11,899 bases of DNA from Verrucomicrobiota bacterium (GTDB taxonomy: Bacteria > Verrucomicrobiota > Verrucomicrobiia > Limisphaerales > AV2): assembly GCA_003218935.1 (NCBI GenBank), contig QHPA01000067.1, forward strand, positions 1 through 11,899, written 5' to 3'. Position numbers and translations under genes: made by a program. Shown here piece by piece: positions 859 to 11,899 of the stretch. Below the pieces are notes generated by a model, which made no database searches, was not told the DNA's origin, and saw nothing but the letters and a program-made list of their open reading frames with translations. The stretch's first letter is position 1. Each line of letters opens with the position of its first letter.

Positions 859-3800
859 TCATGGTAGAGGAACGGCACGGTAAAACCGTGTGGAGAAACC
901 GCCAGCTTGCGGATCGTTAAAATCGACCAAGCCACTTCGGTTGTAATTTGTGGAAACCGGAATCCAATTTACCAGGTTAGTGGAGGCCTCCAGCACGAAC
1001 GGTGAACCCAAGGGAACGGGCATGCAGAAATCGAAGTGTCCGTTCTTGAAACTTATCAATTGATTGTCTTCCGGCCGTTGTGGACTGTCCGGAGCCAGAG
1101 TCAAAAGGAACGCGCGGTCGTTCTGATCAACCAGTCCCTTCTTGCCGAAGCCGACGATTTGGCCCGAGTCATTGATGCCGTTGGCTTGAGTTAAGACCCA
1201 ATCGGAGCCGGGCGGAATGAGCTGGTTGAGGTCATAAAGGACGCAATTGTGCCACAGAAACGCGTGCGACCTCAGATGGACGTCTTCTGCCCAGCCGACA
1301 ATCTGGCCGCGTTCACTAGTGTCGGTGGCGATGCTGTTGAAGCCGCCGAATGTCCCCAGATCGATCAGGAAGCCGTGCAGATAGAGCAAAGCATGGGTGT
1401 GGCCGTCCGCCGTTGATGCGTCACCAACGATCTGCCCGGAATTATTGATGGCCAGAGCCTGGCTGTTGTCTCCTCCCAGAGTTTCCAGCGTCGTCATGCC
1501 CGTGTTCGGGCTATAAACAAACCCGCGTGTCTTTCCCGATGGCAAGCGGGCTGCGCCAACGACCTGTCCGGTATTGTTGATGCCGCGTGCTCCACTTTCG
1601 GAGCCACCGAAAGAATCAAGGTTGGTCATGACTCCATTGCTGAACAGGAATGCCCGTGTTTGGTTGTTGTCATCCTCGGCCTCTCCTACAATCTGGCCGG
1701 ATGCGCTGATTGCGCGGCCAAAACTTTGTCGCCCTCCGAGAGTGCCCAGGTTCACCATGTTGATCCCGTCGTACAGAAACGTGTGCGGATATCCGCTGCC
1801 ATCGGCGGCGTAACCGGTGACGAACCCGGCATCGTTAATCGCCAGGGCACCACCGCCGCCACCCAGACCTTCGCCACCGAGCAAAGGCAGTATCTGTACC
1901 GCCCCATTTCGGTAGATGAAAGGGCGTTGCCGGTAGTCGGGTGTCTTTCCGTCACCAACTACCACTCCGTCGTCGTTGATACCGTTCGCCCGGCTCTCCG
2001 GACCGACCAAGGCCCCCAGATCGATAATGTTGTATTTGGGCATCCGAGTCGGATCGTTAGTGACTGTGACACATACCTGGCTAGAAACGCCGGTCCCTCC
2101 GCGATTGTCCAGAGCCCGGGCGTTGAGGCAATAGGTTGTCTCCGTGAGGTTGCGCACCACAAAGACGAAAGGTTGGTTGGTCAGGATGCCCAACAGAAAA
2201 TCGTACGAATACAGTTGGACTTGCTGAATGCTGCCGTCCGGGTCGGACGCGTCCACCACCACCACGATGTTTGTCGGTGCGGAGTAAATGGCGCCAGCCG
2301 CCGGACTGAGAATCCGGACTTGTGGAAGCGCATTGGGCGTCTCGACCGAAAAATGCACCGGCGCCGATGTCGTTGCGGCTCCGAAGGCGTCAATTGCCAC
2401 GGCGGTCAGGGTGTAGTTGCCGACCGGAGCATTGGTCCAGGTGAAACTGAAATCGGGAGAACTGAACTGGTTCGCGGTCGCGAGGAAGACGCCGTTTGTG
2501 TAGAAGTCCACACGGCTGACAGGGCCTTCGAAATCGCGTGCGTCCGCCATGAGGCGGACGTTGGCTGGGATCGTGTATCGGTCTCCCTCGCTTGGACTGG
2601 CAACAAAAACTTCTGGTGGATGCTGCAAGGTAATCTGAATCGTCGCTGAATTCGTTGCGCCCAGATTATCCATCGCCAGAGCGGTGAGCGTGTAGTTCCC
2701 CGCAACCGCATTACTCCATGCGATCGTGTAAGGACTGTTTGTTACGATCCCGATAAAATTGCTGCCTTCGTAAAACGCCACCTGGTGGATTGAGCCGTCG
2801 TTGTCCGTCGCGTTGGCCGTTATTCCCAGGGTTCGACCGGCTGTGAACACGGCGCCATTCGTTGGACTCACGATGGAAATGGTGGGCGGGATGTCGCCGG
2901 CAGGCGGCACCACACGAACTGCGAGCGGCGCGGAAGTGGTTACTTCGCCGCGGTTGTCGGTCGCCGTGGCGAAGACGAGATAATCGCCTGTAAACACGTT
3001 GCTCCACGTGAGCGAGAACGGCGCACTCGTCCGCGTGCCCAGCAACGTCGCGCCGGCATAGAAATCCACGCGAGTCACCGTGCCATCAGGGTCGGTCGCA
3101 TTCGCGGCGAGCGAGATGTTATCGCCGACGGTGAAGACCGCGCCCGGCGCCGGGCTGACAAGCTGGATGACCGGCGGTGCGTTCGTAAGCAACCAACGAG
3201 CGAAGCGCGTGGACGATTTTGTTCCGGCCTCCGTGAACGATCCACCCACCAACAGTTCGTTGTCGCGGAGCGCCAGAGCATTTACATAAGGGTCGTTTCC
3301 CTCGATGCCGGTGCCGAGCGCAAACCAATTCACCCCGTCCCAACGCGCCAGAGAAAACGTTTGAAGAGTGTCGATGCGCGAAAACAAGCCGCCCGCATAA
3401 AGATCACGACCGACCATTTGCAGAGCGCGAATGGTCAGGATGCGTCCGGGCATATCCAACGTGCTGGCGATGGGCGACCAATTGGCGCCGTCCCAGCGCA
3501 CGAGATACGGCATAGACTGACCGCCCGACGTGCCGATCTCAGTACCGGCAAACAGTTCGGTGCCGCGCACGGCGAGCGAATAAACTACCACGCTTGGACC
3601 GGGCGCCGTGATGCCCGTGCCAACCGGATTCCATTTGGCGCCGTCCCAACGGGCGATGTTATTGACGGTGAGGCCGCTGGCAGTGAAGAAACCGCCGCCT
3701 GCGTAAAGGTCCGTCCCGCTCGTCGCCAGCGCCAGCACGTCGCCATCAATGCCCTCGCCGAGCGCGGACCACGACTGCCCATTCCATTTGGCTATGTTCT

Positions 3801-6800
3801 TGGCCGCAAGTCCTCCGGCGCTCGTGAAACGGCCGCCGGCAAACAGTTCACCGGCATCGCTCATCACCAGCGCGCGCACGGTGCCGCCGAGGCCGTTCGT
3901 CGGCCCGATACCCAGCGGTGACCAGGTGTTCCCATCCCAACGGGCGATCCGATTCGCCGCGACCGCGCCCGCCTGGGTGAAGTCTCCCGCGACATAAACC
4001 ACGCCCGACGAAGCCGCCGACATGGCATACACGGTTTGGTTCACACCGCCGTTCGTGCCGTTTCCGAGCGACCACCAGTTGGTCCCGTCCCATCGGACGA
4101 TGCGGTTCATCGGCGTCCCGGCGACGGAGGTAAAATCTCCGCCGAGGTAAACGTTCGTACCCTGCGGCGCGACCGCCCAAACGCTGCCGTTCGGGATGCC
4201 GTTGTGCAGCGCGTGCCAGTTCTGGCCGTCCCATGACGCGATATAGTCAACGATTGCGTTTCCCGCGCTTGTGAAGCCGCCGCCCGCGATGAGGTCATTC
4301 CCTCTGAACGCCAGCGCCAGCACCCGGGAATATTGTTCCGCGCTCAAGCTTTGCGGGAGCGCGGACCAGTTCGTTCCGTTCCATTTGAAGATTTGAACCG
4401 GTGTGAAGTTGCCCTGTTGATCGTTGCCCTGGCCCGCATACAATTCTCCGTCTTTCATTGCCAGCGCACCGATATAATCTCCCGGCACCCCGTTGCCGAG
4501 CGCGGACCACTGAACCCCGTCCCAGCGCGCAACGTTCGTCGCTGATATACCGCCGGCGTTGGTAAAGCCGCCGGCAGCGTAGAGATTGGTTCCCTGCACA
4601 ACGAGCGCGTTCACGGGACCACTCACGCCTGAGCCCAGGGACGTCCAGGCGCTGCCGTTCCAGCGAGCGATCCGGTTGACAGTGACGCCGCCCGCGTTGG
4701 TGAACGCGCCTCCCACATAAACGTCACCATTGGTTCCGACGGCTATCGCGCGCACTTCGCCATCAACTCCGACGCCAAGGTTGAACCAGTTCGTGCCGTC
4801 CCACCGGGCAATATTGGCAGCGCTCTGGTTGCCTGCTGAGTTGAATTGTCCGCCGACATAGAGCGAATCGCCGCTTACGGCAAGCGCGTTGACCGGACCG
4901 CCCACACCTCCACCAATGTTCGACCAAACCTGTCCGTTCCATCTGGCCAGAGACATCGCCGGCCGTCCGCCCGCATCAATAAACGCACCGCCGACGCAGA
5001 GATCGCTCCCCTGCCAGACCATTGCGTTCACATTTCCGCCTACACCGTTGCTCGGACGATTGCCCAGCGGCAGCCAAATGCGCCCATTCCATCGCGCGAT
5101 ACCACCGTAGCCAAGAGAGCGGGACAGCGTGCCGCCGGCGTAAACATCACCGTTCGTCGCCACCGCAATCGCGCGGACCAGTTGGTTGAACCGGGAATAG
5201 TTGAACTGGTCGTCCCACTGTTCATTCCCGACAGCGAGCGTCACCGTCGCGGTGTTGCCGGTTTGAGCGCCGTCATTGGCCGCGTAAGTGAAGTGATCGT
5301 AACCCGTGAAGCCGGCATTTGGAGTATAGCTGAACGAACCGTCAGTGGTAAGGATGAGCACACCGTTGGTCGGGCCGGTCACGAGATTGGCCGTCAGCGG
5401 TTGACCGTCTCCGTCGTAATCATTGGCCAGAACACCCAGTGCGGCGGACACATTCAACGAACCATTTTGCGCGACCGAGTACTCATCGTTGTTGGCGAAA
5501 GGTGCGTCGGACACCGGACTGATAAGCAGGCTCACCGTGGCGGCAGTGGAGTCTATAGCTCCGTCATTGACAGAGAAACTGAAACTGTCCGACCCGTTGT
5601 AATTCGGAAACGGCACGTAGATAACCGCCATCGAGTTGCCGCTCTGGCCGTTGAGATACAGGTTGCCGTGCAGTGGCTGGGTGAGGATGTGAAACGTGAG
5701 CGGGTCAGCATCGGCGTCCGTGCCGGTCAAGTTAAAGCTGGCCTGCGTGTCCTCATTTAGCGTAATCGTTGCGGCCTGGGCCACAGGAGCGTCATTGACC
5801 GGTGTCACCACGACCTGCACCGTCGCGGGCGCGCTAGTGACGCTACCGGAGACCGCCTGATAATTGAACGAGTCTGTCCCGTTATAGTTCGTACCCGGCG
5901 TGTAGAAGAAGGAACCGTCAGCATTGAGATTCAAATCGCCGTGCGCCACGCCGCTCACCAGCACCGCGCTGGCCGGAGTCGGATTGCGGTTTGTGTCATT
6001 CGCCAATACCCCCGGCGCGGCCACGTTCAGTGGCGTGTCCTCAGCAGTAACGTAAGCGTCGTTTCGAGCGACCACGGCATTCGTCGCATATACAGTGACG
6101 TTGATAGGACCGGAAGTCCCGGCTCCGCCCAGCGTATCGGCCGCTTTGGCGGTCAGGACGTGTGGACCAGCGGGAGGATTTGTCCAGACAAAGTCGTAAG
6201 GCGCAGCCGCCGCTTCGCCAAGTTTGTTGGTGCTGGCGAAGAATTCGACTTTGGTCACGGTCGCATCCGGGTCGCTCACCTCAGCCGTGAGCGTAAGGTT
6301 GGTCGGAAAGAAGATTTCGGAACCGTTGGTTGGGCTGGTCAGGTTGATCGCAAGGCGAGTCGCGACAGAAATGGCCACGGGTGCCGATGTCGATGCGCCA
6401 CCGAGCGCGTCTGTAGCTCGCGCCGTGAGCGTGTAACTGCCCACCGGCGCATTCGACCATGTGAGGCTGTAAGGTGGGTTCGTCGCAGTGCCGATCAGGT
6501 TCGCGCCCTGAAAGAAATTGACTTGCGAGATCGTCGTTCCAAAAGCGGCTGCCGCGGCAGTGATTGAAATCGGCTGTCCGGGAAAGAAAACCGCGCCATT
6601 CGTCGGGCTGGTCAAGCGAACGTGCGGCGGCAGGGCAAGTCCGCTGTTGCCCGTGTGGTGCGGATCGCGATGAAACATCGGCCAGGCACCCTCCGCCAGG
6701 CCACTGCTGCCGGCCACCGCATAGAATTTGGAATTAAAAGCGCCGATGCAGACCGAGCCGTCTTCGCGAATTACAGGTGAACAGATGACCGCGCCCCCGG

Positions 6801-7737
6801 CGGCAAATGCCCACAACTTCGTCCCTGCGCTATCCAGGGCATAAAGCTTCTGATCGCTACAGCCAAAATACACCGTGCCATCACTTGCAATCGCTGGCGT
6901 TGATTCGATGGAGTCACCAACGGCAAACTTCCACTTTTGCGAGCCGTCCGGATTCACGGCGTAAAGATTTTGATCGAAGCAACCGAAATAGATCGTGCCG
7001 TCCGACCCGACCGCCGGTGAGCCAAAAATGTAGCTGCCAGCCTGAAACGACCAACGCGTCGTGCCGTCAGGATTGATCGCGTATAGCCTGGCTTCACCAA
7101 AGCCTGTGGTCGCGTAAATCGCTCCGTCCGCGCCGATGGCCAGTCCTGCCACCAACGCGTTGAATCCGACACTCCACTTCTGCGTGCCGTCCGGCCTTAT
7201 CGCGTAGAGCAACTTGTCATTGGAACCCGCGTAAATCGTCCCATCCGGACCTACCACGGGTGAGCACCGAAATGTCACGCCGGCGTTGAACTCCCAAAGC
7301 TTTGTTCCGCCAGGACTGAGAGCGTACAAGTTGCCTCCACCGCTGCTGAAGTAAATCGTCCCGTTCGTGCCCAGAGCCGGCGACGTGTCCACGGTGCCGC
7401 CCGCCGGGAAGGACCAGCGCGCCGTGCCATCTGCGTTGACCGCGTAAAGCTTGTTGTCGTCGGCGCCAAAATACAGCGTTCCATCCGGGGCAATCGCCGG
7501 TGCCGACCGGATTTCCGCGCCCACGGTGAATTCCCACTTCTTCGCGCCGTCCGGGGTCAAAGCGTAGAGTTTTTTAGCGTCAGAACCAAAATAGATCGAG
7601 CCGTCCACCGCAATTGCCGGCGAAGACCCGATGCCGCCGCCAGCGGTGAACTCCCATAGTTTGGTGCCGGGTGATTGAGTCAGGCCGGTCAATGGGAGCG
7701 TCAGCATCAACACGGTGATCAGGGATTTGGACTTCAT
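859..7737 (-). CDS. Giant secreted mosaic protein: PQQ-like, Ig-like, cadherin-like, WNG-propeller and HAF repeats
   Basis: This 2292-residue protein is probably exported by Sec and acts outside the cell, by adhesion or ligand binding; no enzymatic residues are recognised. Residues 1 to about 20 form a signal peptide (MKSKS, then a hydrophobic stretch to LTGLT) without a lipobox. Eight PQQ-like blades of 40-41 residues fill 24-345, each with a GTKLWEF-like start and a YFG...LYAL core, followed by WPMFHRDPHHTG (352-363). Ig-like modules lie at 372-458 and 463-550, and three cadherin-like modules at about 555-836 (NYNGTDSF, PVNDAP signatures). Residues 850-1515 hold 14 units of about 48 residues (LYVGGxFTxAGG, ARWDGxxW). 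Four more Ig-like modules occupy about 1521-1892, seven HAF repeats (INxSGQIVG) 1905-2213, and a C-terminal module 2215-2292 carries FVLEASTNLVNW and TRFYRAV. The ATG at 7737 is supported by GGAGGT five bases upstream and by the signal peptide it starts. It is transcribed after the kinase gene but separated from it by 212 bases containing its own promoter-like element. No PEP-CTERM, LPXTG or type 9 sorting signal is evident. The architecture is clear; the biological role is unknown. Confidence 0.93.
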   Translation of the reverse strand: MKSKSLITVLMLTLPLTGLTQSPGTKLWEFTAGGGIGSSPAIAVDGSIYFGSDAKKLYALTPDGAKKWEFTVGAEIRSAPAIAPDGTLYFGADDNKLYAVNADGTARWSFPAGGTVDTSPALGTNGTIYFSSGGGNLYALSPGGTKLWEFNAGVTFRCSPVVGPDGTIYAGSNDKLLYAIRPDGTQKWSVGFNALVAGLAIGADGAIYATTGFGEARLYAINPDGTTRWSFQAGSYIFGSPAVGSDGTIYFGCFDQNLYAVNPDGSQKWKFAVGDSIESTPAIASDGTVYFGCSDQKLYALDSAGTKLWAFAAGGAVICSPVIREDGSVCIGAFNSKFYAVAGSSGLAEGAWPMFHRDPHHTGNSGLALPPHVRLTSPTNGAVFFPGQPISITAAAAAFGTTISQVNFFQGANLIGTATNPPYSLTWSNAPVGSYTLTARATDALGGASTSAPVAISVATRLAINLTSPTNGSEIFFPTNLTLTAEVSDPDATVTKVEFFASTNKLGEAAAAPYDFVWTNPPAGPHVLTAKAADTLGGAGTSGPINVTVYATNAVVARNDAYVTAEDTPLNVAAPGVLANDTNRNPTPASAVLVSGVAHGDLNLNADGSFFYTPGTNYNGTDSFNYQAVSGSVTSAPATVQVVVTPVNDAPVAQAATITLNEDTQASFNLTGTDADADPLTFHILTQPLHGNLYLNGQSGNSMAVIYVPFPNYNGSDSFSFSVNDGAIDSTAATVSLLISPVSDAPFANNDEYSVAQNGSLNVSAALGVLANDYDGDGQPLTANLVTGPTNGVLILTTDGSFSYTPNAGFTGYDHFTYAANDGAQTGNTATVTLAVGNEQWDDQFNYSRFNQLVRAIAVATNGDVYAGGTLSRSLGYGGIARWNGRIWLPLGNRPSNGVGGNVNAMVWQGSDLCVGGAFIDAGGRPAMSLARWNGQVWSNIGGGVGGPVNALAVSGDSLYVGGQFNSAGNQSAANIARWDGTNWFNLGVGVDGEVRAIAVGTNGDVYVGGAFTNAGGVTVNRIARWNGSAWTSLGSGVSGPVNALVVQGTNLYAAGGFTNAGGISATNVARWDGVQWSALGNGVPGDYIGALAMKDGELYAGQGNDQQGNFTPVQIFKWNGTNWSALPQSLSAEQYSRVLALAFRGNDLIAGGGFTSAGNAIVDYIASWDGQNWHALHNGIPNGSVWAVAPQGTNVYLGGDFTSVAGTPMNRIVRWDGTNWWSLGNGTNGGVNQTVYAMSAASSGVVYVAGDFTQAGAVAANRIARWDGNTWSPLGIGPTNGLGGTVRALVMSDAGELFAGGRFTSAGGLAAKNIAKWNGQSWSALGEGIDGDVLALATSGTDLYAGGGFFTASGLTVNNIARWDGAKWNPVGTGITAPGPSVVVYSLAVRGTELFAGTEIGTSGGQSMPYLVRWDGANWSPIASTLDMPGRILTIRALQMVGRDLYAGGLFSRIDTLQTFSLARWDGVNWFALGTGIEGNDPYVNALALRDNELLVGGSFTEAGTKSSTRFARWLLTNAPPVIQLVSPAPGAVFTVGDNISLAANATDPDGTVTRVDFYAGATLLGTRTSAPFSLTWSNVFTGDYLVFATATDNRGEVTTSAPLAVRVVPPAGDIPPTISIVSPTNGAVFTAGRTLGITANATDNDGSIHQVAFYEGSNFIGIVTNSPYTIAWSNAVAGNYTLTALAMDNLGATNSATIQITLQHPPEVFVASPSEGDRYTIPANVRLMADARDFEGPVSRVDFYTNGVFLATANQFSSPDFSFTWTNAPVGNYTLTAVAIDAFGAATTSAPVHFSVETPNALPQVRILSPAAGAIYSAPTNIVVVVDASDPDGSIQQVQLYSYDFLLGILTNQPFVFVVRNLTETTYCLNARALDNRGGTGVSSQVCVTVTNDPTRMPKYNIIDLGALVGPESRANGINDDGVVVGDGKTPDYRQRPFIYRNGAVQILPLLGGEGLGGGGGALAINDAGFVTGYAADGSGYPHTFLYDGINMVNLGTLGGRQSFGRAISASGQIVGEAEDDNNQTRAFLFSNGVMTNLDSFGGSESGARGINNTGQVVGAARLPSGKTRGFVYSPNTGMTTLETLGGDNSQALAINNSGQIVGDASTADGHTHALLYLHGFLIDLGTFGGFNSIATDTSERGQIVGWAEDVHLRSHAFLWHNCVLYDLNQLIPPGSDWVLTQANGINDSGQIVGFGKKGLVDQNDRAFLLTLAPDSPQRPEDNQLISFKNGHFDFCMPVPLGSPFVLEASTNLVNWIPVSTNYNRSGLVDFNDPQAGGFSTRFYRAVPLP

Positions 7738-7748: not shown

Positions 7749-7815
7749 AAAAGTAAGTTCAGTTATTTCGATCTCGTGTCATTCACAATCACAGTAGTTA
7801 TGAATTCTTCACCTC

Positions 7816-7847
7816 ATACATGCGTCGTCCAGCACCAAAACCCGACA
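7816..7847 (-). promoter_or_regulatory. Promoter-like element upstream of the giant protein gene (shared motif, copy 1)
   Basis: On the minus strand TGTCGG (7847-7842) is followed by exactly 17 bases and CGCATGTAT (7824-7816). The same two boxes with the same spacing occur upstream of the kinase gene at 11454-11423. A further conserved GGTGATTT lies just upstream of the first box (7859-7852). If these are -35 and -10 boxes, transcription would start near 7809, giving a 5' leader of about 70 bases. The ECF sigma factor encoded in this window is the obvious candidate to read it, though this is inference. Confidence 0.6.
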
Positions 7848-7949
7848 ACGAAAATCACCTTAATGGTCCTCCACGCGTCCGGCCTGAGGATCGTCGCATG
7901 CTTTCCCCAACAAATATCGAGATGTTCGTAAAGGTCAGCAAACCCGACC

Positions 7950-10900
7950 TTAATTTGATTTCGCGTCGGCCATTTCGATTGCGTCGATTTCCATCAGTGG
8001 AGGGGCGCGCCAGACGTGGAGCTTATCTTGGTCATTGAACGACACCAGCAGATTGCCGTCAGGAGAAAAAACCGTCTGCCTAAACTGGGCGCCCTGGCCT
8101 TTCAGATTCAATAATTCCTGGCCCGTCGAGAGGTCCCACACTTTGATGGCTTCCTTGGCGTTGCTCCCCGTGGCCAGCCGTTGCCCATCGGGAGAAAATC
8201 CAATTGAATGGACACCGAGCAAATGACCTTTCAACACAGCCCGTTCTTTGCGCGTGATGGGGTCCCACAGCTTTGCCAAGCCGTCCAGACCGCCGGTTGC
8301 CAGTAACCTGCCTTCGGGCGAGAACGCCACCACGGTGACAACCCCGAGATGGCCTGAAAAAGCCGCCAGCTCGTGGCCATCGACAGTGTTCCACATCTTG
8401 ATCGTTCCACTGGGAAGTCCTGTGACCAGGAGACGTTCGTCGGGACTGACGGTCACCGCACTGAGATTAGGGTCAATCTGCCACGACGCAATCTCCCGCC
8501 ACGAACCCACCTCCCACCGTTTGACCACGGAGGTCGAGTCCCCGGAGAGCAAAACCTTGCCACGAGCAAGGAATCTCCAAGGCGAGACGGGAGCATCATG
8601 GCTCTTAAACGTTGTTACTTCCCGCCGGGCAACGAAATCCCATATCTTTATTCTCCCATTACGGTCCCCGACCGCCATCGTCCGTTCATCGGGTGATATG
8701 ACACAGCTCATGTTGTCCGATCCCAGTTTCGAAATCTTTTCCTTCTCGCGCAATTCCCTGGCGTCCCACAAGGACAACGAACCGTCGTGGTTCACTGACA
8801 CAAATGATTTGCTGTCCGGTAAAAACCTCACCAGGTGCACCGCGGAGGACGCGACAACCTCAACTTCGTCGGCGTGCTTGAGGTTTGGATCCCAGATACA
8901 GACCTCGCCATCCTTGCTGCCGGTAACCAGTCTCCGCCCGTCAGGGGAAAACGCCAACGTATGAACCTCGTCCAGATGTCCGCGGAGCAGAGAGATTTGT
9001 TCGTGGTTTAGAGCATCCCACAGTCGAATCGTTTGATCGCCATCGGCGCTGGCTAGGCTCTTGCCGTCCGGCGCAAACGCCAATCCACTGACCCACGCAT
9101 TGTGTCCAGTGAGAGTACCGGCGTGTTCGCCAGTCGGAACCACCCAAAGTTTCACTGCGGTGTCTGCGTAACCTGAACCAGACGCCAACAGCGCTCCGCT
9201 GGGCGAGAAGGAAAGCGCAGTGATTCCTTCCGAGGACGCGCTGAACCGGCTCTTCAACTCGTAGGTGTTCGCGTCAAACAGCCGGACCCGGCCGTCTGTG
9301 CCGCCAATAGCCATCCATTTGCCATCCCTAGAAAACAAGACAACTCCTTTGTGTTCTCCAGCCTCCGACGTTGCCGGGATTTTTCTTATAATTTCCTGCC
9401 TCTCCAGATTCCAAAGCAACACTATCGGGTCCTTGGCATAAACAGCGAGTCTCTTGCCGTCCGGGGTGAACGCAAGCGACATTGCCTCTCCATCCAATTG
9501 AAGTTGAGTCACTGCAGTTTTCGTCGCCACATTCCACAACTCGACCATGAACCGACCATTCGCATTGGTACTGCCGTAGGCCAGGAGCGTACCGTCCGAG
9601 GAAACAGCCAATGCCCTGCAATAACCGAAGCCCGGCAATTCCCCGACTTGCCGATGACTGGCCATGTCCCAAAGCTCAACGGCCCCGTAATCGTGCCGGA
9701 GTGCGACCAGCTTTCCTGAATCGGCAAAGACGGCAAATAAGTGCGTATCCGGCCGTTTACGGAGTGTGAACAGCGCATCGCCCCGGCACCGCTGCCACAG
9801 ATAACGCCATTCCCATCCGCGCAAATCGACTTGACCCGGTTGCGGGCGATTGCGTTGCAACACTTCCCGCGCGCGTCCAAGATTATTCGCCGCCAGGGCC
9901 TGTTGTACCAGGTTCATGTCGGATGCGTACGCAAATCGTCGCGCAGTCAATTCTTCCGCCTCGGCCCGCAACCGCTGTTGCTTTTCATCAGCGCGCGCCT
10001 TTTCCGATTCCTGTCGGCGCAGGTCCGCCTCTTTGCGGGCTACCTGTTCTCTGAACAACGCCCAAGTCGTCGTGCCCAGGCCGACTATCAGCGCGAGGAA
10101 AACGATAGCGCCGGCGGCAAAAGCGAGCTTGTTCCTCCGCACCAGTTTCTCCAGCCGATATGTCGCGCTGGGCGGACGGGCCACGACCGGTTCGTTGTGG
10201 AGAAACCGTTTGAGGTCCATCGCCAGACCGTTGGCAGTCTCATAGCGGCGGGAGCGATTCTTCTCCAGACACTTCATGACCACCCAGTCGAGGTCCCCGC
10301 GCAATTGTGAGCGGAGCTTTACAGAATCCGTGGATCGGGCCTTTGCGACGGTGGTGCGTTGCGCGTCCGTCAGGGTGGCCAGTCGGGTGCTCGGGCGCGG
10401 TGGTTCGATCTCTCGAATCGTGCGGCGGATGCCGTCCAGTCCCTGCTTCAGAAGGTCCTTGGCGTCGAACGGAGTGTCACCCGTCAAAAGTTCATAGAGG
10501 AGTACGCCCAGGCTGTAGATGTCGCTGCGCGTGTCGATATCCAGCCCGCTCATCTCCGCCTGTTCCGGGCTCATGTAAGCGGGCGTGCCGATGAACTGGT
10601 GCAGTTCCGTATAGACAGTGCCGTCGGTCAAGCGGCCCTGCGTGGCTTTGGCGATGCCGAAGTCAATGACCTTCGGAACCGGCACGCCGTCGTGCAAGGT
10701 GACCAGAATGTTCGACGGCTTCAGGTCGCGGTGGATGATTCCCTTTTGATGTGCATGCTGTACGGCGTTGCAGACCTGGATGAACAACTCCAATCGCTGG
10801 TTGGTGTCGAGGTGATTCTGGTCGCAATAATCCGTGATGCGAATGCCGCGAACCAATTCCATCACGAAGTAAGGACGGCCGTTCTCGGTGGTGCCGGCGT

Positions 10901-11396
10901 CGAGCACTTTGGCGATGTTTGGATGGTCCATGATCGCCAGCGCCTGGCGCTCCGCCTCGAAGCGAGCGACAACCTGCCGGGTGTCCATCCCCAGCTTGAT
11001 GACCTTCAAGGCGACTCGCCGGCGGACCGGCTCTTCCTGCTCGGCCACATAGACAACGCCACAACCGCCTTCACCAAGCTTCTCACGCAGTTTGTAATGC
11101 CCGATGCGCGCGCCCGGTTGTTCTTCGGGTGGTAGCGTCACTCGGACGGTGTCTCCTTGCTCCGCTTTTTCGGCTGGGGATTCTGCTGCGTCGCCCGGAG
11201 CGTTCAACGCAGCACCGCTCTCTTCAAAAAACTTGTCGGCGTCTGGCTCGGCAGACAACAGGATTAGGAGGCGGCGACGCAGTTCGGGATTGTCTGCGCA
11301 CGCGGCGTCGACGAACGCCTTGCGCTGGACCGGATCGGTCAACTTCCGGGCGGCATCGAAAAGCGTTTCTTCCTGTTGTCTGGCGTCATTCATCAT
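7950..11396 (-). CDS. Membrane-anchored Hanks-type Ser/Thr protein kinase with 14 WD40 repeats
   Basis: Numbering is from the ATG at 11396 (1148 residues). An acidic N-terminal segment (about 1-95) of the type found in verrucomicrobial kinases precedes the kinase domain. The domain has the Gly loop GEGGCGVVY (108-116), Lys131 in VALK, Glu149, HRDLKPSN (222-229, catalytic Asp224), DFG (245-247), GTPAYMSPEQ (270-279) and DIYSLGVLLYELLTG (292-306). All catalytic residues are intact and it is an RD kinase. One hydrophobic segment (about 423-447) follows a basic VRRNK, then a charged probable coiled coil (448-485). A linker ending DLRGWEWRYLWQRC is typical of these WD40 kinases. Fourteen WD40 units of about 42 residues run to the C-terminus (VELWDMAS first, LHVWRAPP last), enough for two seven-bladed propellers. 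The kinase is predicted to be cytoplasmic with the propellers across the membrane, but topology is uncertain because both flanks are basic. A GTG at 11408 would add four residues. No start has a good Shine-Dalgarno site; I prefer ATG 11396 (or 11393) because 11408 leaves almost no leader after the promoter-like element. Confidence 0.93.
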   Translation of the reverse strand: MMNDARQQEETLFDAARKLTDPVQRKAFVDAACADNPELRRRLLILLSAEPDADKFFEESGAALNAPGDAAESPAEKAEQGDTVRVTLPPEEQPGARIGHYKLREKLGEGGCGVVYVAEQEEPVRRRVALKVIKLGMDTRQVVARFEAERQALAIMDHPNIAKVLDAGTTENGRPYFVMELVRGIRITDYCDQNHLDTNQRLELFIQVCNAVQHAHQKGIIHRDLKPSNILVTLHDGVPVPKVIDFGIAKATQGRLTDGTVYTELHQFIGTPAYMSPEQAEMSGLDIDTRSDIYSLGVLLYELLTGDTPFDAKDLLKQGLDGIRRTIREIEPPRPSTRLATLTDAQRTTVAKARSTDSVKLRSQLRGDLDWVVMKCLEKNRSRRYETANGLAMDLKRFLHNEPVVARPPSATYRLEKLVRRNKLAFAAGAIVFLALIVGLGTTTWALFREQVARKEADLRRQESEKARADEKQQRLRAEAEELTARRFAYASDMNLVQQALAANNLGRAREVLQRNRPQPGQVDLRGWEWRYLWQRCRGDALFTLRKRPDTHLFAVFADSGKLVALRHDYGAVELWDMASHRQVGELPGFGYCRALAVSSDGTLLAYGSTNANGRFMVELWNVATKTAVTQLQLDGEAMSLAFTPDGKRLAVYAKDPIVLLWNLERQEIIRKIPATSEAGEHKGVVLFSRDGKWMAIGGTDGRVRLFDANTYELKSRFSASSEGITALSFSPSGALLASGSGYADTAVKLWVVPTGEHAGTLTGHNAWVSGLAFAPDGKSLASADGDQTIRLWDALNHEQISLLRGHLDEVHTLAFSPDGRRLVTGSKDGEVCIWDPNLKHADEVEVVASSAVHLVRFLPDSKSFVSVNHDGSLSLWDARELREKEKISKLGSDNMSCVISPDERTMAVGDRNGRIKIWDFVARREVTTFKSHDAPVSPWRFLARGKVLLSGDSTSVVKRWEVGSWREIASWQIDPNLSAVTVSPDERLLVTGLPSGTIKMWNTVDGHELAAFSGHLGVVTVVAFSPEGRLLATGGLDGLAKLWDPITRKERAVLKGHLLGVHSIGFSPDGQRLATGSNAKEAIKVWDLSTGQELLNLKGQGAQFRQTVFSPDGNLLVSFNDQDKLHVWRAPPLMEIDAIEMADAKSN

Positions 11397-11422
11397 CGAA
11401 ACGGGCACAGGCTCTTCATCTG

Positions 11423-11454
11423 ATACATGCGCCGGTAGAAGGCAAAAACCGACA
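11423..11454 (-). promoter_or_regulatory. Promoter-like element between the sigma factor and kinase genes (shared motif, copy 2)
   Basis: On the minus strand TGTCGG (11454-11449), a 17-base spacer and CGCATGTAT (11431-11423) match copy 1 exactly in both boxes and in spacing, while most of the spacer differs. GGTGATTT lies just upstream (11465-11458), also shared with copy 1. The element sits in the short gap after the sigma stop, so the kinase may have its own promoter in addition to read-through. Predicted transcription would begin near 11416, about 20 bases before the ATG at 11396, giving a very short leader without a clear Shine-Dalgarno site. Confidence 0.6.
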
Positions 11455-11480
11455 CTTAAATCACCCCCTCCATTCCAGGT

Positions 11481-11899
11481 TCAAAGCTCCTGCCTGACGG
11501 CCGCGAACAACCACGCCTTGGCGTAGGCCCAATGGCGTTCGACAGTGCGCTCGGTCACGTTCAGGCTTTCCGCCAGTTCCCGGTTGGTCAGTCCACCGAA
11601 AAATTTCATCACGACCACGCGCGCCTTTTCAGGGTCCTCGGCCTGAAGACGCTCCAACGCCTCGTTGATCAACAGCACCTTTTCGTCGGGCGTCGCGTCG
11701 GCGAGTTCCAATTCCTGAATGTCGATGCGCACCTGACCTCCGCCGTGCTTGAGCCGGGACCTGCGCCGTGCCCGCTCAATCAGTATGCGGTGCATGGCTT
11801 CCGCTGCAGCGCCAAAAAAGTGTCCACGGTTCTGCCAGCCCATTTCCTCGTCGGTCGTGAGGCGAAGCCACGCCTCATGGACCAAGGCAGTCGGTTGCA
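11481..11899 (-). CDS. ECF-type RNA polymerase sigma-70 factor (N-terminus outside window)
   Basis: This is a TIGR02999/Sigma70_ECF-like sigma factor that would direct RNA polymerase to a dedicated promoter set. The frame is open to the right edge, where it reads QPTALVHEAWLRL, so the TTG at 11885 is an internal Leu codon and region 1/2.1 is missing. The region 2 remainder includes the family-typical NRGHFFGAAAEAMHRILIERARRR, followed by KHGGG. Region 4 (roughly the last 65 residues) carries a helix-turn-helix in LTNRELAESLNVTERTVERH. The position usually occupied by the acidic DAED stretch of region 2.2 reads QPTA. The kinase gene follows on the same strand after 72-84 bases, an arrangement typical of this sigma group, and no anti-sigma gene is visible. 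Control by the kinase is therefore likely, but is inferred. Confidence 0.92.
   Translation of the reverse strand, partial: QPTALVHEAWLRLTTDEEMGWQNRGHFFGAAAEAMHRILIERARRRSRLKHGGGQVRIDIQELELADATPDEKVLLINEALERLQAEDPEKARVVVMKFFGGLTNRELAESLNVTERTVERHWAYAKAWLFAAVRQEL

Follow-up and report, generated by a model that had tools for sequence, protein, structure and literature searches.

Two matching promoter-like elements beside a kinase-linked ECF sigma factor gene of a Verrucomicrobiota bacterium, and their counterparts behind related sigma genes

What reads the same two-box element when it stands ahead of two very different genes? The question is raised by an 11,899-nucleotide (nt) stretch of DNA from a Verrucomicrobiota bacterium of the order Limisphaerales (assembly GCA_003218935.1, contig QHPA01000067.1), hereafter the window. 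On its minus strand, one copy of the element (P1) precedes the gene of a Hanks-type Ser/Thr kinase and another (P2) the gene of a giant secreted protein, and a gene for an extracytoplasmic function (ECF) sigma factor lies close to P1. P1 and P2 are very probably ECF-type promoters that are read by the adjacent, probably kinase-activated sigma and drive the kinase gene and the giant gene. An earlier note on this DNA had taken the two copies as promoters of one adjacent sigma factor, and this is supported because strong sites and sigma gene occur together within the genus, because a two-site layout with a sigma-specific −35 variant recurs in part of the relatives, and because one residue of the sigma recognition helix tends to go with two bases of the −35 box. 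The features on which the argument turns are as follows:

11423-11454, minus strand: P1, predicted promoter of the kinase gene (−35 box TGTCGG at 11454-11449, spacer of 17, −10 box CGCATGTAT at 11431-11423)
7816-7847, minus strand: P2, predicted promoter of the giant secreted-protein gene (−35 box TGTCGG at 7847-7842, spacer of 17, −10 box CGCATGTAT at 7824-7816)
11413-11418, minus strand: TGAAGA downstream of P1, perhaps near the transcription start (read from the sequence)
7806-7811, minus strand: TGAAGA downstream of P2 (read from the sequence)
7950-11408, minus strand: gene of the Hanks-type Ser/Thr kinase with C-terminal WD40 repeats (Pfam PF00069 plus WD40)
859-7737, minus strand: gene of the giant secreted protein of 2,292 amino acids (aa), with propeller, Ig-like and HAF repeats (PQQ-like propeller, Big_7, Big_9/tandem-95, Rax2-like propeller, HAF)
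11481-11897, minus strand: gene of the ECF sigma factor with helix TVERHWAYAK, its 5′ end lost at the contig end (TIGR02999, PF07638)

The likeness of the two copies, put at about 36 of 51 positions by the earlier hand count, came to 37 of 51 when the positions were paired with a single gap of 1 nt, on the minus strand and at the places first described. The alignment score was 35.5, compared with a mean of 17.2 (standard deviation 2.4) and a maximum of 34.5 among 3,000 random pairs of 52- and 51-mers, a maximum that may itself stem from overlapping stretches. All 15 box positions of TGTCGG-N17-CGCATGTAT are identical in P1 and P2. When up to three mismatches were allowed, the window held two matches (0.33 expected; two were reached in 8 of 200 shuffles), and both real matches are exact. 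TGAAGA, located 4 nt downstream of the −10 box in both copies, is a further shared piece. P1 is the first site after the stop codon of the sigma gene, a placing that is found in part of the relatives as well. The spacer of 17 in both sites lies within the ECF-type spacing, with boxes 16-18 nt apart ahead of the target genes. The canonical AAC of the −35 box and CGT of the −10 box are found in neither TGTCGG nor CGCATGTAT, respectively; according to PMC8103513, these hallmarks of ECF promoters were drawn from a small early subset.

Within the genus, five genomes were compared, namely the own genome (G000) and four congeners (G001 to G004). Exact copies were found once in G001 and three times in G004, and in none of the other congeners. 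G001 carries in addition a copy with a −10 box one base shorter directly after the sigma gene (G001:C67), with a lipoprotein-like gene inserted between this sigma-adjacent site and the kinase gene; its other site stands on another contig, after a redoxin-type gene and ahead of the orthologue of the giant gene. The three copies of G004, on one contig, precede the kinase gene, small frames and the gene of a 1,752-aa protein with Rax2 and Big_7 domains, respectively, and the third overlaps the end of the preceding frame. A profile built from six of the genus sites and run on the five genomes returned those six plus G001:C67, a site already known before the search (E 7e-16 to 2.6e-5), with the next match at 0.10. 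All seven strong sites are in genomes with an orthologue of the sigma (G000, G001 and G004), while G002 and G003 have no strong site in this search and no sigma-orthologue match at E 1e-68. Of the boxes that had been described as conserved, TGTCGG and CGCATGTAT were borne out; GGTGATTT is present in only three of the seven genus sites (TTT alone in all seven) and was dropped from the core. Likewise, the spacer has kept its exact length of 17 as described, yet its sequence has diverged only in part: it starts with (G/T)TTTTG in six of the seven sites and with GTTCTG in the seventh.

The own genome comprises 3,828,600 bases in 546 contigs and is 82% complete. P1 and P2 are its only exact matches to TGTCGG-N17-CGCATGTAT, with about 0.007 expected by arithmetic; seven more matches appear at two mismatches, where about seven are expected by uniform arithmetic and the reversed-pattern control gave one. 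A wide regulon was not seen in the own genome, either in this exact and mismatch search or in profile scoring of 150 of its 861 first-look candidates, a procedure (150 candidates per genome) by which weak members could be missed. Looser patterns gave 51 matches versus 28 in the reversed control for TTGGCCCN{16,18}CGCAT in 12 chosen genomes, and 92 versus 30 for TGTCGGNTTTN{12,14}CGC in 14 chosen genomes, the surplus being explained in the own genome only. There, the looser pattern has four matches outside the window, three within long gene-like reading frames and one between genes. The latter (G000:C288:1879-1904; L528 1501) has TGTCGG, a T-run, a spacer of 17 and a −10 of CGCTC, 79 nt ahead of a 482-aa frame, and is possibly a further target of the window sigma. 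The genome-wide scan proposed in the earlier note thus had another outcome than the enrichment it looked for, with strong sites only in islands of sigma, kinase and secreted-protein genes, plus one weaker intergenic candidate elsewhere. The regulon is likely local to such an island; likely rather than proven, because of the candidate on C288 and the looser-pattern surplus that stands in the other genomes. As a world-wide signature, exact TGTCGG-N17-CGCATGTAT was rejected: it occurs in at least 118 stretches, and as the spacer begins with a T-run in none of those listed, they were taken as chance. One-mismatch matches in 53 genomes outside the genus numbered 16, versus 5 for the reversed pattern, and by eye had no T-run.

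PF07638 sigmas were found in 52 of 96 sampled genomes of the order, and the DNA downstream of further ECF genes from this family and order was taken as the family loci. A kinase gene follows within 1.5 kb, in the same orientation, at 37 of 65 held-out loci; in two more sets it does so at 35 of 60 and at 40 of 48 loci. An unsupervised two-box search of 21 stretches without the genus sites returned TGGCnn-N17-CGCATG as the best of 160 runs. Loci from genomes used in training, five in number (L244, L248, L259, L266 and L269), had been removed from the held-out set, and 33 of its 37 loci with a kinase have it at 11-700 nt. CGCATG occurs at 11 of these 33, against 2.04 in shuffles (0 of 1,000 reach 11), 2 on the opposite strand and 1 in the ECF coding control, and TGGC[CG]N17-19CGCA at 5 of the 33, against 0.32 in shuffles. 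At 13 of 96 other loci, TGAA[AG] stands 3-10 nt downstream of CGCAT, compared with 0.82 in shuffles and 1 on the opposite strand. The patterns for the CGCATG and TGAA[AG] tests were written after the held-out sequences had been seen, CGCATG itself having been fixed earlier from the genus sites and the motif search.

The layout of two sites recurs as well. Twenty ECF loci of 10-15 kb, selected because their first site was clear and their contig long, were read together with L185; one of the 21 (L487) had no usable kinase frame, which left 20 usable loci, including the near relatives L494 and L496, and the counts are not population frequencies. The kinase gene was taken as the farthest-reaching long frame after the first site (in L485 a 325-aa frame). 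At 11 of the 20 loci the −35 variant of the first site recurs between −150 and +700 nt of the end of that frame, compared with 0.10 such sites expected from 31 other TG[GT]Cnn boxes; in the DNA of the long loci as a whole, 20 extra own-variant sites were read versus 3.4 expected. The −10 variant, too, is common to both sites in some loci (CGCTT in L495; CGCGT in L488, L489 and L497).

As the gene after the second site, the longest frame starting 35-450 nt downstream was taken, a choice that favours long frames, and whether a product is exported was judged by visual inspection of its N-terminus. The outputs comprise an RHS-repeat protein (1,543 aa), laminin-G/autotransporter-repeat proteins (909, 936, 1,066 and 1,679 aa), a 1,681-aa protein that appears to resemble the latter, a DUF3570 protein (481 aa) and a frame of 240 aa whose HEAT match stays below the cut-off. 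Directly after the second site stand pseudopilin genes in L490 (3271-4095) and L495 (3281-4150), both by N-methyl and DUF1559 models, and in L491 (3065-3904) by its N-terminus, hinting that parts of an export machinery may be among the output of the modules. L491 moreover has a third own-variant site at 7071, 343 nt ahead of a frame of more than 2,500 aa that has autotransporter-type repeats and runs off the stretch. By eye, the C-terminus of the giant protein of the window (about 859-1000, minus strand) and the second-site proteins of L488, L489, L494, L496 and L497 have roughly similar endings, with a W and then, close to the very end, FYR or FFR; this common ending is a candidate C-terminal sorting domain of exported proteins in these bacteria.

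A further feature of the window lies in the recognition helix of the sigma:

11538-11540, minus strand: codon of Glu120 of the sigma fragment (x of TVxRHW), the residue paired with −35 bases 5-6 (GG)

The third residue of the sigma4 helix (TVERHW in the window) varies across the family and tends to match bases 5-6 of the −35 box: Lys goes with CC, Arg with CG, Glu and Asp with GG and Tyr with AG. The window sigma, with Glu and GG, is in line with this trend. Under a looser rule (any base after CG at the −10; TGGC with CC or GG only; within 200 nt), 154 ECFs gave 20 CC and 3 GG for Lys and 0 CC and 11 GG for Glu (Fisher 1.3e-6), L188 and L209 giving no protein by the rule used for this count; on the opposite strand there was no contrast (Lys 5 CC and 5 GG, Glu none). 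A blind caller, which ignores −35 bases 3, 5 and 6, was applied to 199 loci (the 154, to which 42 closely related sigmas and 3 rows from the genus were added, with L370 of the genus omitted and five duplicates removed). Among its calls, Lys has CC in 11 of 18, Glu GG in 12 of 13 (three of them from the genus), Asp GG in 8 of 11, Tyr AG in 4 of 4 and Arg CG in 3 of 3. Of all columns in the sigma fragment, the helix residue ranks first (z 11.4, the next at 6.3), and its mutual information exceeds that of all 20,000 permutations in a test of 52 rows with the genus cut to one row, in which related loci are not independent. For base 3 of the −35 box (G or T), no convincing sigma column was found (best z 4.4). 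Moreover, among sigmas with the helix of the window, [TS][VI]ER.WA[YF]A[KR], TGTCGG-N16-18-CG lies downstream in 13 of 30 (10 of 27 without the genus) versus 4 of 197 others, with 0 and 3 on the opposite strand, respectively. Outside the order, 28 loci gave 8 called sites (opposite strand 2), with Lys and CC in 2 of 3, Glu and GG in 2 of 2 and two sites with other residues; L505 and L509, of the same class, combine the window-type helix with TGTCGG-N16-18-CG.

A structural reason for the correspondence could come from the contacts of K170 of SigW and R171 of Escherichia coli SigE with the base pair at −31 described in PMC6713349, since −31 is the fifth base of the −35 box. Judged by the T-V-K pattern and a profile alignment to SigL, itself weak (E 0.003), the variable position probably equates with these two residues. 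As in SigW of Bacillus subtilis and SigE, it would be an early helix residue at −31; there, by that account, the residue reads the template G, and Lys here is found mostly with C. Unlike in SigW and SigE, the residue in the present family varies (Lys, Arg, Glu, Asp, Tyr and others) with the DNA often matching, and the box is TG(G/T)Cnn.

Several results weigh against this account of the sites. No second site was found near the kinase end at 9 of the 20 long loci, and 17 of the 30 sigmas with the helix type of the window have no TGTCGG site downstream. The blind caller reached its threshold at only 54 of the 199 loci (opposite strand 8), and the top solutions of the two-box search were close (log-likelihood 70.9, 68.0 and 66.8) in a search run without a shuffled control. 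The prediction of TGGCCC for Lys and TGGCGG for Glu was fixed before 60 new loci were fetched, of which 12 helices were not parsed; under the rule as first set, these loci are weak evidence, since Lys had CC in 3 of 9 hits and GG in 3 of 9 (CC in 3 of 4 with the third piece), and Glu had GG in 1 of 1, without the third piece. The looser rule applied to the new loci alone gave Lys 5 CC and 2 GG and Glu 0 CC and 4 GG (p 0.06). Furthermore, Lys/Arg versus Glu/Asp changed only about three times on the tree, too few for an independent-pairs test, and outside the order the one Arg had GA in place of CG (L524) and one of the three Lys had AC.

How the sigma would be controlled is suggested by its region sigma2.2. 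Ordinary ECF sigmas bind core RNA polymerase via an acidic DAED motif. The window sigma differs at:

11889-11891, minus strand: Thr of QPTA, which replaces DAED in region sigma2.2, a candidate phosphosite (from the translation, the relatives and the ECF43 consensus QTTA in PMC13147305)

The identity of the protein is clear despite the missing 5′ end, with 157.9 bits to TIGR02999 (cut-off 126.15) and 144.2 to PF07638 (cut-off 21.1), so that the sigma factor gene reported as adjoining is an ECF sigma gene directly upstream of the kinase gene; it is incomplete because the window is the entire contig (C264) and the gene lies at its end. The kinase has PF00069 at residues 105-393 and, by eye, a hydrophobic stretch, and its start codon is uncertain (GTG at 11408 or a Met at least four codons further on). 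Of 68 sigmas, 67 were parsed and carry QPTA (49), QATA (17) or QGTA (1), with the Thr conserved in 67 of 67; the 68th is the window fragment, which starts with QPTA. In ECF43, the place of DAED is taken by STTA (in EcfP) or the consensus QTTA, a motif that the kinase encoded next to the sigma phosphorylates (PMC8999054, PMC13147305). Both marks of that group, a kinase beside the sigma and an uncharged Thr motif in place of DAED, are found here, a likeness that is not a formal group assignment. As QPTA replaces DAED in the manner of the ECF43 motif, the following scheme is proposed. The sigma would probably be silent until the kinase, on receiving a signal, phosphorylates the Thr; the active sigma would then transcribe the kinase gene from P1, so that the kinase would mediate a positive feedback, and from P2 the gene of the giant secreted protein as the presumed output. 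By eye, the N-terminus of the giant protein is signal-peptide-like. In G001 and G004 no strong site is listed ahead of the sigma gene itself by the profile search; therefore feedback, if any, would run via the kinase.

The EcfP-PknT pair of Vibrio parahaemolyticus and the EcfK-PknS pair of Xanthomonas citri, both of ECF43, are described with the same adjacency of sigma and kinase genes and a Thr motif for DAED. They differ in their outputs, polymyxin resistance or a type VI system, compared with the kinase gene and adjacent giant secreted protein proposed here; the window kinase, unlike theirs, carries WD40 repeats, and the promoter proposed here is TGnCnn-N17-CGCAT. For ECF59, ECF61, ECF62, ECF217 and ECF283, phosphorylation by a neighbouring kinase has likewise been proposed, and by the description in PMC8999054, on which this comparison is based, they keep DAED or a similar acidic motif, which none of the parsed sigmas has. 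A variant that shares the promoter half of the proposal, and that we consider unlikely while giving it real weight, is that the sigma is controlled by its amount or by another factor and not by the kinase. Phosphorylation of the sigma is here deduced by likeness, and EcfK of X. citri with T51A is reported still to work, other sites being of importance (PMC13147305), which speaks for this variant; the Thr kept in every parsed sigma, the adjacent kinase gene and the phosphorylation reported for EcfP-PknT and EcfK-PknS (PMC8999054, PMC13147305) speak for kinase control.

It is a good deal less probable that the sites belong to another regulator or sigma and stand near this sigma gene incidentally. 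The link between sigma and sites is computational, and the boxes have neither AAC nor CGT, the early ECF hallmarks (PMC8103513). Such a regulator, however, would have to account for an asymmetric two-box layout with a spacer of 17, for strong sites and sigma being present or absent together in the five genus genomes, for −35 bases that track the sigma4 helix residue, and for a second site that repeats the −35 variant of its first site in 11 of 20 loci. That the likeness of P1 and P2 reflects a recent duplication or mobile repeat with no regulatory role is very improbable: the window does hold an incomplete tyrosine recombinase gene and the copies align over about 50 nt, yet the likeness is strongest in the boxes and the near spacer, three species retain the sites, ahead of different genes, and the genome has two copies.

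The recombinase gene (PF00589) lies at 2-508 of the window and is incomplete at the contig end. An inverted repeat, TTTTATGCCGCA / TGCGGCATAAAA, is seen by eye after it at about 520-590 and is perhaps a recombination site.

Taking P1 and P2 as promoters of the adjacent, kinase-activated sigma, a wider conjecture can be formed, which we hold tentatively and with slightly more doubt than confidence. Kinase-activated sigmas of a large and little-studied class may run private signalling channels, in which each module of sigma, kinase and exported protein is insulated from its paralogues within one cell by matched changes at one helix residue and two −35 bases. Each would act on two genes alone, that of its own kinase and that of a giant exported protein or pseudopilin next to it. 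If true, the promoters and outputs of many such modules would be predictable from the sigma sequence alone. One genome, G007, has 15 matches to the window sigma (at least one gene being counted in two pieces) and would serve as a test case for the insulation of paralogous modules.

Kinase-activated ECF sigmas are already known; the promoter pattern, the specificity rule and the two-site layout are proposed here, and no paper on this promoter, the residue/base rule, the layout or the targets of the family was found in the open-licence literature. With the promoter pattern and the specificity rule in hand, targets could be predicted from sequence. The pattern points to a recurrent output, namely large exported proteins and pseudopilins that are co-induced with their own sensor kinase, and the purpose of the giant genes would become directly testable.

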